This document shows positions 384-32,091 of a stretch of 64,000 nt of DNA, piece after piece. Position numbers and translations under genes: made by a program. Position 1 is the stretch's first letter. Each line of letters begins with the position of its first letter. The notes beneath the pieces were generated by a model. That model worked only from the letters and a program-made list of their open reading frames with translations, was not told where the DNA came from and made no database searches. The DNA is from Chryseobacterium sp. MEBOG06 (GTDB lineage: Bacteria; Bacteroidota; Bacteroidia; Flavobacteriales; Weeksellaceae), in the NCBI RefSeq assembly GCF_021869765.1, contig NZ_CP084580.1, forward strand, positions 2,914,001 through 2,978,000, written 5' to 3'.

Positions 384-428
384 GGTAAATATTAGATAAT
401 ACAAGTTTAAGAAAATTCCTTCTACTTT

Positions 429-446
429 AGACACTACCAAGTGTCT
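429..446. promoter_or_regulatory. TetR-type operator palindrome, copy 1 (divergent)
   Basis: AGACACT-ACCA-AGTGTCT is a perfect 7-bp inverted repeat with a 4-nt spacer. It lies between the leftward tetR gene and a rightward -7 box (CATATTTG, 454-461, one mismatch to TAnnTTTG). The same palindrome recurs at 884-901, 1256-1273 and 1607-1624, each time exactly 7 bp before a -7 box. Binding by the adjacent TetR protein is inferred. Confidence 0.7.
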
Positions 447-630
447 AATTTTGCATATTTGTAGAAACTAAAACCATTCTAAATAAGAAAGAGCCGTTAA
501 AGTGGGAGAATTAGAAACAATTGAGAGTGTAATTATGCTCTATCCAATAAAGACAGCTTCAGACATTCATTAGCTAATGAAAAATATTTAAACAAAAATC
601 TCGTTAGGAATTCAATGGTGCTTTCTTAAG
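447..630 (+). ncRNA. Putative small RNA unit 1 (divergent member of a four-copy family)
   Basis: A transcript starting just after the -7 box at 454-461 would hold no convincing ORF. It contains a hairpin, AGAGTGT-AATT-ATGCTCT (about 523-540), that aligns with hairpins in units 2 and 3 around a GTAATTATG core shared with unit 2. A perfect dyad, TTCATTAG/CTAATGAA, lies at 566-581. A degenerate form of the family terminator (CGTTAG, GAAT, TCAATGGTG) lies near 602-620. This is the least conserved of the four units and may be decaying. Confidence 0.4.
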
Positions 631-883
631 TTGAAAGGATGGTCACTTTTCCTAACAATGAGTAGATTATATTAAAAGCATTTATTATAAGAAGGAAACT
701 TCAGCAAAGGTATTGGAAGACCTTGAATGTAAATATTTAACCGTTTGATGGGAATTTTTTTTGAAATTTTAACCTCGAACAATATATTTTCTATTTTTAC
801 CAATAATTTAATCAATTAATATACAATGCTTTATAGATATTATATGAATCAAATCAGAAAAAAGGAAAAAAAAATAACATTTT

Positions 884-916
884 AAACACTTTATAGTGTC
901 TTATTTATTATATTTG
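884..916 (+). promoter_or_regulatory. Operator plus -7 box of small RNA unit 2
   Basis: AAACACT-TTAT-AGTGTCT (884-901) is followed after 7 bp by TATATTTG (909-916), a full match to the Bacteroidetes -7 consensus TAnnTTTG. The palindrome occupies the spacer between -7 and -33, where a bound repressor would block the sigma factor. Confidence 0.65.
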
Positions 917-921
917 CATCA

Positions 922-1085
922 AACTAATAACCGTTTTGTATTTTAAAACACTATCTAAGTTGAAAAAGAAGAAAAATTCAGACCGTAATTATGTTCCCTC
1001 AATTTAAAGATAGTTTCGAATATTAAACAACTAAGGTAAAAACACTTACACAAAAACATCATTAGAAATCTAATGGTGTTTTTCG
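922..1085 (+). ncRNA. Putative structured small RNA, unit 2
   Basis: About 160 nt run from the predicted start to a strong intrinsic terminator. No ORF is credible. The predicted fold is an outer stem ACTATCT/AGATAGT extended by AAGTTGA/TCAATTT, enclosing a hairpin GA-C-CGT-AATT-ATG-T-TC. A conserved single-stranded block with ACTAAGGTAAAAACAC follows, then the terminator. Relative to unit 3, several paired positions change on both sides of a stem. The family is not recognised; the Rfam Flavo-1 model would be one covariance model to test. Confidence 0.55.
1052..1085 (+). terminator. Intrinsic terminator of small RNA unit 2
   Basis: Stem AAAAACATCATTAG (1052-1065) pairs with CTAATGGTGTTTTT (1070-1083) with one G-U pair. 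The loop is AAAT, and the 3' side continues TTTTTCGTTTTC. Confidence 0.7.
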
Positions 1086-1255
1086 TTTTCGGGAAAATAT
1101 TACCCTGCCTCCTGTTTTTTTTCACCTTTATCCAGCATATCCAAGCTAATAGGGTTTAACTACAACTTTTTCCTTCTTAAAGCACTCATTTAAAAGACTA
1201 ATATATAGAACATTACACTTATTTTCGTAAAATAAATAAAAAATAATAATAATTT

Positions 1256-1288
1256 AAACACTTTATAGTGTCTTATTTATTATATTTG
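1256..1288 (+). promoter_or_regulatory. Operator plus -7 box of small RNA unit 3
   Basis: AAACACT-TTAT-AGTGTCT (1256-1273), 7 bp, then TATATTTG (1281-1288). The block from the palindrome to about 50 bp past the -7 box is essentially identical to the one at 884, which points to tandem duplication. Confidence 0.65.
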
Positions 1289-1293
1289 CATCA

Positions 1294-1449
1294 AACTAAT
1301 AACCGTTTTGTATTTTAAAACACTATTTAAGTGAAAATTCAGGTCGCAATCGCGTCCCTCAACTTAAAAATAGTTTCGAATATTAAACAACTAAGGTAAG
1401 ATCACTTACACAGGAGTATCATTAGACATCTAATGGTACTTTTTCATTT
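1294..1449 (+). ncRNA. Putative structured small RNA, unit 3
   Basis: This is a paralogue of unit 2, shorter by a few bases in the loop. The outer stem is ACTATTT/AAATAGT, a C-G to T-A compensatory change relative to unit 2, plus AAGT/ACTT. The inner hairpin is GG-T-CGC-AATC-GCG-T-CC, where A-T became G-C and T-A became C-G. The linker TTTCGAATATTAAACAACTA is identical to unit 2. It ends in an intrinsic terminator, and no ORF is plausible. Confidence 0.55.
1415..1449 (+). terminator. Intrinsic terminator of small RNA unit 3
   Basis: AGTATCATTAG (1415-1425) pairs with CTAATGGTACT (1430-1440) with one G-U pair. The loop is ACAT and the tail is TTTTCATTTTC. Confidence 0.7.
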
Positions 1450-1606
1450 TCAGGAAAAGCGTTCGCCAAACTATTGTTTTTTTTATTGATTTGAATAGAT
1501 CAGATTCTTTTTTACTTTATCATTATTGCTCTGAATACCTTCTATCAAACATTTTCTTTCCATTATCATAATATCAATAAGAGAGGAGATAAAAAAAATT
1601 AATTTT

Positions 1607-1639
1607 AGACACTTTACAGTGTCTTATTTTGTATATTTG
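1607..1639 (+). promoter_or_regulatory. Operator plus -7 box of small RNA unit 4
   Basis: AGACACT-TTAC-AGTGTCT (1607-1624) is a perfect 7-bp inverted repeat. It is followed after 7 bp by TATATTTG (1632-1639), the same spacing as in the other three copies. Confidence 0.65.
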
Positions 1640-1644
1640 CATCC

Positions 1645-1776
1645 AACTAATAACCATTTTACATATTAAGCACGACGTGAGTTGAAAAACTAAAAAAGAT
1701 TTCGAGAAAACCCACTAAGGTAAAAACACAAAACTTAGTCAGCAGCAATAGGATTCTAATGCTGCTGTTTTATTTT
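1645..1776 (+). ncRNA. Putative small RNA, unit 4 (shortened)
   Basis: About 130 nt. It keeps the 5' block CAACTAATAACC, a TTTCGA segment and ACTAAGGTAAAAACAC, but lacks the long central stem-loop of units 2 and 3. It ends in a different but positionally equivalent terminator. No ORF is seen. Confidence 0.45.
1740..1776 (+). terminator. Intrinsic terminator of small RNA unit 4
   Basis: AGCAGCAATAG (1741-1751) pairs with CTAATGCTGCT (1756-1766) with one mismatch; C1740 pairs with G1767. The loop is GATT and the tail TTTTATTTT. Confidence 0.7.
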
Positions 1777-31911: not shown

Positions 31912-32091
31912 TGAAAACCTGATCCACACAGCCAAAGAACAGCTACAGTTGCCATAGACGGAAATTGGATAAAAACGAAAACAATATTAAAGTCTATCTG
32001 AATGATATTGTAAAAAAATAACCGATGAACAAAGCTAATAACCATGAAAACTCATTATTAAAAATCGGCACGCCCCATAATAAAAAATAGT

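Follow-up and report, generated by a model that had tools for sequence, protein, structure and literature searches.

The window analyzed here, a stretch of 64,000 nt from the genome of Chryseobacterium sp. MEBOG06, begins within an array of operator-promoter-RNA-terminator units that lie beside genes for TetR-family proteins. Two RNA-like elements at other sites in the genome, which we call X and Y, were found to match the reverse complements of the two best-kept segments of the array RNAs. Coordinates refer to this window unless marked genome or L001.

Units, operators and tetR genes of the array

A sequence-only reading of the window had described four such units next to a single tetR gene. 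The four palindromes were present exactly as described, each 7 bp ahead of a −7 box, and three units end in clear intrinsic terminators and one in a degenerate version (Table 1). In keeping with that reading, no plus-strand open reading frame (ORF) of at least 30 aa begins in the units, and the first palindrome lies upstream of tetR as well. The count had to be raised: the full array comprises seven units and three paralogous tetR genes, and the remainder, including three units that adjoin the left edge, lies outside the window. Searching the 5.29 Mb genome with the operator-promoter string (≤3 mismatches) gave seven matches, all on a single strand and within 3.7 kb (genome 2911955, 2913003 and 2913504 for the three outer units, then 2914430, 2914885, 2915257 and 2915608). 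The reversed pattern gave none under the same threshold, and therefore the repeat is not due to chance. An eighth palindrome, strongly degenerate, lies at about L001 11668. Judged by these sequence signals, the array RNAs have a promoter and a terminator of their own.

The tetR paralog cut by the window edge is the third; the other two are 74–79% identical to it, and a fourth TetR homolog in the genome is 49% identical. Pfam TetR_N was found in all three paralogs (31.5–35 bits). The AlphaFold model of paralog 3 (predicted local distance difference test, pLDDT, 85.9) has TetR-family entries as its best PDB matches, with a template-modeling score by query of 0.44–0.66 among the best 50 listed. 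The predicted fold is that of an ordinary TetR, with the N-terminal helix-turn-helix and helical ligand domain of this repressor family. The palindrome (≤1 mismatch) lies 44–53 bp (median 47) ahead of the start codon in all 73 tetR copies from 41 loci, one of which (L056) reads only 96 aa, and by eye it falls outside the likely −7 box of tetR. Linkage and position suggest that the TetR proteins bind the palindrome and repress the RNAs; repression of tetR by its own product, proposed in the sequence-only reading, is less evident from this position.

The operator-promoter was found in 50 of 148 genomes of the genus (reversed-pattern control, 0). Among the 49 operator-bearing genomes other than the source, 40 had their locus fetched, and a tetR was present in 40 of 40; the remaining nine were judged by coordinates and have tetR within about 1 kb, G063 being the loosest. 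These results bear out the claim of a TetR-linked battery of RNA units kept in relatives beside this tetR. One genome, G025, has a solitary two-mismatch operator match with no tetR nearby among the matches listed; this apparent orphan unit was rejected, being coding sequence. The palindrome arms are kept and the four central bases vary, under a search pattern that itself fixed the arms to two mismatches. Locus size ranges from one divergent tetR-operator-RNA module up to the seven-unit array described here.

The named operator-bearing relatives carry the label Chryseobacterium, and at least one TetR homolog occurs in each of the 148 genomes. Loci from Chishuiella, Myroides/Paenimyroides and two from Flavobacterium have a TetR homolog of 55–61% identity and a like palindrome, which by eye stands 5′ of apparent protein genes; the X motif is absent from them, and a Y-like match occurs at most once and is weak (L234). 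In view of the 48 loci covered by this close-relative search, the use of the TetR-palindrome module for RNA looks like a Chryseobacterium invention. The operator was not found in viral contigs.

A TetR paralog of 46–50% identity was sampled in 15 loci. In 13 of these (L109, L110, L113–L119, L121–L123, L129) it lies only a few bases behind a pyridoxal phosphate (PLP)-dependent acyltransferase-like gene, and in 14 a dnaX-like gene comes after it, both named by eye; no array-type operator was seen ahead of it in the 15 loci, and it is perhaps a lipid-sensing ancestor. Locus L112 (G143) has a 55% TetR homolog with an altered palindrome, TCACC-N4-GGTGA, beside a TATATTTG-like box, and operator specificity may have shifted there. 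Downstream of the single-unit array RNA in L065, L067–L070, L073 and L075 lies a gene for a VOC-like protein (MNLVSIRI or similar, by eye), which has a different palindrome-like TGACA..TGTCA ahead of it.

Table 1. Features of the array and its tetR genes, with computed pairing energies of the X and Y sites
Feature	Position	Strand	Basis or remark
Three tetR paralogs	L001 10963–11619, 12319–12954, 13733–14383	opposite to RNA units	ORFs
tetR paralog 3, 5′ part (216 aa; extends left to genome 2913733)	1–383	−	ORF; Pfam TetR_N 35 bits
Operator palindrome 1, between tetR and unit 4	429–446		~45 bp ahead of tetR start codon
−7 box CATATTTG, unit 4	454–461	+	sequence
RNA unit 4, degenerate, end approximate	462–640	+	terminator weak
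Unit 4 X site, kept	462–478	+	−13.7 kcal/mol
Operator palindrome, unit 5	884–901		sequence
−7 box TATATTTG, unit 5	909–916	+	sequence
RNA unit 5 with terminator	917–1084	+	X site 920–935 (−16.0), Y site 1032–1046 (−16.7 kcal/mol)
Operator palindrome, unit 6	1256–1273		sequence
−7 box TATATTTG, unit 6	1281–1288	+	sequence
RNA unit 6 with terminator	1289–1445	+	X site 1292–1307 (−16.0), Y site 1392–1406 (−12.9 kcal/mol)
Operator palindrome, unit 7	1607–1624		sequence
−7 box TATATTTG, unit 7	1632–1639	+	sequence
RNA unit 7 with terminator	1640–1773	+	X site 1644–1658 (−15.5), Y site 1716–1733 (−19.7 kcal/mol)

Complementarity of the array RNAs to elements X and Y

Of 139 fuzzy operator matches, 91 RNAs (39 locus ids) remained once the box had to end in TTTG and the terminator to have 9 pairs or more; the window's unit 4 was among the matches excluded. 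The RNAs measure 118–562 nt from box to terminator, with a median of 165 nt. An ATG-initiated ORF of at least 20 aa occurs in 3 of the 78 short RNAs (the other 13 RNAs are long), and by this count of ORFs in the short RNAs small-peptide genes seem unlikely. Among the 51 RNAs that were aligned, column identity reached 0.86 (X site) and 0.87 (Y site), compared with 0.62 in the stretch separating the two and 0.79 across the terminator, so that the two sites are the best-kept stretches ahead of the terminator. All eight predicted pairs of the terminator stem show compensatory changes.

A short helix, CCUCAGU/ACUGAGG, was paired in 80.3% of cells where it is present. None of 500 shuffles matched its pairing or covariation score, and slid versions stayed at or below 46%; on two further measures, based on the numbers of pairs and of pair types, 165 and 53 of 500 shuffles did as well. 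We regard this helix as only moderately supported, and no conserved structure was found beyond it and the terminator. Rfam gave no match in the window at the gathering score and, on the units, three sub-threshold matches (E up to 5), none of them plausible.

X was reached by a nine-genome search with the conserved 5′ array motif AAACTAATAACCATTTTA: the arrays aside, the matches listed included a repeated 18-mer lying inside X on the opposite strand. X is an RNA-like element of about 65 nt in which the linker TTTTCATGGTTATTAGTTTTT joins a small hairpin to a terminator whose sequence varies. Its 37-nt core (≤3 mismatches) was found in 148 of 148 genomes of the genus, and the reversed control in none. 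Among the matches listed, X has one to six copies per genus genome, and a 26-nt core occurs in 204 of 246 genomes of the family, representing 26 of 33 genera. Sigma-54 promoters have been described in a flavobacterium (PMC9723704). Compared with the TGGCAC-N5-TTGC-like promoter of this class, 22 of 24 X copies are preceded by the loose −24/−12 pattern TGGCA[CT]-N4-6-TT[GCT], a pattern used without a control. At the X loci (L138–L141, L146), Rfam found only tRNAs and sub-threshold matches.

Y was reached by searching genomes with the 3′ array motif. It consists of CATTTGTGTTTTTACC followed by a terminator with a varying stem, and CGAAATAATTTTTTTTCAT stands ahead of it in 30 of 31 copies. Among the matches listed, a Y 24-mer (≤3 mismatches) occurs in 147 of 148 genomes of the genus, and the sole genome lacking a match is 73% complete; a few extra matches of the 24-mer are chance occurrences in coding sequence (L132). 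Rfam gave only tRNAs and sub-threshold matches at the Y loci (L136, L163, L170). A further 7 nt of complementarity, between the array motif ATTTCGAA and the 5′ end of Y, were noted by eye.

In one sequence each, the linker was predicted to be unpaired with a probability of 0.81 for X and 0.73 for Y. The reverse complements of both linkers resemble translation starts (AACTAATAACC-ATG-AAAA for X and ACAA-ATG-ATG-AAAAA for Y), and therefore X and Y probably block start codons.

The computed pairing was site-specific. The first 30 nt of the array RNAs paired with the X linker at a mean of −13.3 kcal/mol, compared with −6.3 (standard deviation, sd, 1.5) for shuffled linkers, a value reached by 0 of 200 shuffles; the next 30 nt stayed at the control level (82 of 200). 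For the RNA bodies, the energies were −16.5 kcal/mol against Y (shuffled −8.9, sd 0.9) and −13.5 against X (shuffled −9.4, sd 0.9), each reached by 0 of 100 shuffles. The best Y site lies directly ahead of the terminator in 87 of 91 RNAs, and the best X site within the first 30 nt in 74. In a cross-test with thresholds of −9 for X and −10 for Y, chosen after seeing the energies, X sites were found at the 5′ end of 91 of 91 RNAs, Y sites at the 3′ end of 85, and both in 85. With the ends exchanged, Y was found at the 5′ end in 0 of 91 and X at the 3′ end in 1 of 91. Shuffled seeds reached both sites in a mean of 1.4 of 91 RNAs and a maximum of 9 (60 shuffles).

The longest identities are 14 nt (X complement) and 16 nt (Y complement). 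The X site is also accessible, with a predicted unpaired probability of 0.73 in 90 array RNAs, compared with 0.50 elsewhere in the RNAs. The Y-site motif was located in 73 of 91 RNAs for the shuffle test and in 74 for accessibility. Visual inspection had suggested that the 3′ motif holds another X site, but this was rejected since 187 of 200 shuffles were as good; the 3′ motif fits Y and not X. Unit 4 retains only its X site, its best Y match (−7.7 kcal/mol) being no real site.

X is not confined to cellular genomes. Its 21-nt linker occurs in 25 IMG/VR stretches, 21 of which look like X by eye, while Y was not found in viral contigs. In eight of the 25 (L260, L262, L264, L266, L270, L272, L273, L279), X lies behind a tRNA gene that ARAGORN placed on the same strand, ending no more than about 85 nt before the linker. 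In several phage copies (L263, L269 and L278 among them) the first hairpin is altered and the linker unchanged.

The window itself holds an X-like relic at 32030–32070 on the minus strand, with hairpin and linker and, by eye, no terminator. It is flanked by a pectinesterase gene and a DUF4861 gene, both belonging to a polysaccharide locus of the pectin type (TonB plug/SusC-like, SusD, GH88, GH43), and its plus strand forms an X-target-like site within the likely operon transcript. Nearer the array, a 119-aa ORF with no Pfam match (2178–2537) adjoins it, a similar ORF standing beside the array in G124 (L124 6444–6803), and 4751–7822 encodes a 1023-aa IgGFc-binding-domain protein with a CHU_C type IX secretion signal.

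The sponge reading and its alternatives

Taken together, the locus is best explained as a TetR-gated, multi-copy array of two-target RNA sponges for the core small RNAs (sRNAs) X and Y, a reading to which we give a probability of roughly 0.7. The best-kept segments are complementary to two core sRNA-like elements, which points to sponges rather than to sRNAs with mRNA targets of their own. Of the sequence-only reading, the TetR-linked battery of RNAs stands; its view of the products as related sRNAs is extended by this complementarity. Complementarity to the seed of an sRNA in the same organism, as expected of a sponge, was found here for X and Y, which are themselves putative sRNAs.

Mechanistically, TetR-family proteins would bind the ACACT-N4-AGTGT palindrome 7 bp before the −7 box and hold the RNAs off, until a ligand releases all of them together. 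The 5′ end of each RNA may then act as a decoy of the site recognized by X, and the stretch just ahead of the terminator as a decoy for Y. If X and Y, like FopS and GibS of Bacteroides, block mRNA start codons, the array RNAs would hold them and free the mRNA targets of both. The base after CCAU at the X site is T in 73 RNAs, C in 15, A in one and G in none (the motif is missing in 2 of 91), so that this site carries AUU, AUC or AUA and never AUG. A start-site decoy that avoids AUG is a simple explanation of this pattern, as X and Y could be bound with no translation from there.

Several observations weigh against this explanation. An ATG does occur further along within the first 45 nt of 7 of the 91 RNAs, and the Y site (74 RNAs) is barely more accessible than average (0.55 vs 0.50). 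Matches are often imperfect: the exact 14-nt X complement is present in 30 of 91 RNAs and the 11-mer GGTAAAAACAC in 44, the others pairing through bulges or mismatches. Six of 91 RNAs have no good Y site. A GGTAAAACATTAC-like variant occupies the Y site in 15, including three of those six, and RNAs of this class seen to pass the Y threshold did so narrowly (about −10.4 kcal/mol). An internal site can give the strongest X match when a single-unit RNA is long. The 91 RNAs are related and their matches are not independent, so the shuffle counts are not probabilities and the figures describe retention. Single windows of the 64-kb region reach −15.5 (X) and −15.8 kcal/mol (Y) at the 0.1% level, and therefore one match alone means little.

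Also, since array motifs led to X and Y, a complement at some place in the genomes was to be expected; that both would lie in ultra-conserved RNA-like elements was not. No other partner was found for the middle segment TTAGTTCCCTCAGTTTAA in nine genomes or for the GGTAAAACATTAC class in eight. Some matches in these searches recur in two to five genomes, with overall counts not above the reversed pattern, and all six recurrent matches that were fetched (middle segment, GGTAAAACATTAC class and 3′ motif) fell inside ORFs.

We considered it unlikely that the array RNAs are ordinary trans-acting sRNAs with their own mRNA targets, resembling X and Y complements through shared start-codon-like sequence. 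Such RNAs would fit the 5′ segment, which is predicted to be largely single-stranded like a seed, and the middle, which diverges between copies as target-specific seeds would. However, the 14-nt and 16-nt identities occupy fixed, separate ends, with exchanged-end controls of 0 and 1 in 91, and 159 ordinary start regions average only −8.1 kcal/mol with X, vs −13.3 here. Besides X and Y, the followed-up genome matches were coding among the matches listed, except L136, which turned out to be Y, and L137, which sits behind an ORF.

The same complementarity would arise if X and Y were regulators that clear excess array RNA, the latter being mere substrates with a function elsewhere. A sponge and its sRNA can lower each other, as described for CrfA and SisA (PMC12559287), and some conservation is seen in further short stretches of the RNAs. 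We find this improbable, because few of the short RNAs have an ORF, the RNAs vary widely in length, and the pairing sites are their best-kept stretches ahead of the terminator.

Somewhat less probable still is cis feedback, in which the array RNAs, by pairing with tetR mRNA or by contact with the TetR protein, would chiefly control the regulator encoded beside them. The tetR-operator-RNA module is indeed fixed head-to-head, and LuxR/HapR with the Qrr sRNAs in Vibrio offers a TetR-type-sRNA feedback. The pairing of array RNAs with tetR start regions, however, had a mean z of −0.01 (185 pairs), and the only conserved structures are the terminator and the short helix. For X, tetR start regions are only moderately better partners than those of other genes, at −11.1 (n = 68) against −8.1 kcal/mol (sd 3.1, n = 159), with 9 of 68 in the top 5%; that X dampens tetR translation and closes a loop is a weakly supported lead.

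Finally, it is highly improbable that the units are non-functional relics, in which a promoter-terminator unit was duplicated and simply carried along with tetR. Unit 4 and the palindrome at about L001 11668 are decayed, but half-sites, spacing and boxes are kept over 50 genomes, and pairing sites and compensatory terminator changes persist while the intervening sequence diverges.

If the sponge reading holds, the locus would add a whole small-RNA circuit for Flavobacteriia, with two ultra-conserved core sRNAs that have no Rfam match and a repressor-gated, multi-copy, two-target sponge controlling both, and the function of X and Y would become directly testable. It would also be a case of RNA genes having acquired a TetR operator module, which was then amplified in tandem. 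Going further, the array could be a small-molecule-gated hub at which one TetR ligand withdraws X and Y together, and, because X occurs in viral contigs, the expansion and divergence of sponge units could reflect an arms race with phage-borne X; we offer this extension as doubtful speculation. No paper on this array was found among open-licence papers, in a literature search not aimed at the X or Y sequence.

Comparison with known systems

Independently transcribed sRNA sponges reportedly include a quorum-sensing sponge of Vibrio cholerae (PMC9732341) and a RoxS sponge of Bacillus (PMC8216469). CrfA of Caulobacter is described as another, with its own transcriptional regulation stated to remain to be determined (PMC12559287). 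Like the sponges of this type as described there, the array RNAs are apparently non-coding and show complementarity to the seed of a conserved sRNA, in some cases a multi-copy one. They differ in forming up to seven tandem copies, each with an operator beside a linked TetR gene, and in that each RNA addresses two unrelated sRNA-like elements from its two ends.

For X, a close parallel is found in FopS and GibS of Bacteroides thetaiotaomicron, reported to bind the start-codon regions of glycan-uptake and other mRNAs (PMC11697453, PMC7366714). Compared by description, all are multi-copy elements of Bacteroidota; X (about 65 nt) is close to FopS (65–70 nt), occurs in some phage contigs and has a predicted single-stranded seed seemingly aimed at start codons. 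The FopS genes are described as dispersed, with a 5′ seed and sigma-ABfr promoters (PMC11697453), whereas the X linker sits between two hairpins and X promoters are mostly sigma-54-like. FopS is reported to repress mRNAs, while the array RNAs are proposed decoys.

In Vibrio, the Qrr genes are dispersed, are activated by sigma-54 and LuxO, and target luxR mRNA. Both systems wire sibling sRNAs to a TetR-type regulator (LuxR/HapR in Vibrio); here, in contrast, the tetR genes lie inside the array, and no pairing with tetR mRNA was found in the 185 pairs. Lastly, the array shares with ordinary TetR divergent repressor modules the divergent gene and the palindrome beside a promoter. In Chryseobacterium, unlike in those modules, the product proposed to be regulated is an RNA, multiplied up to seven times.

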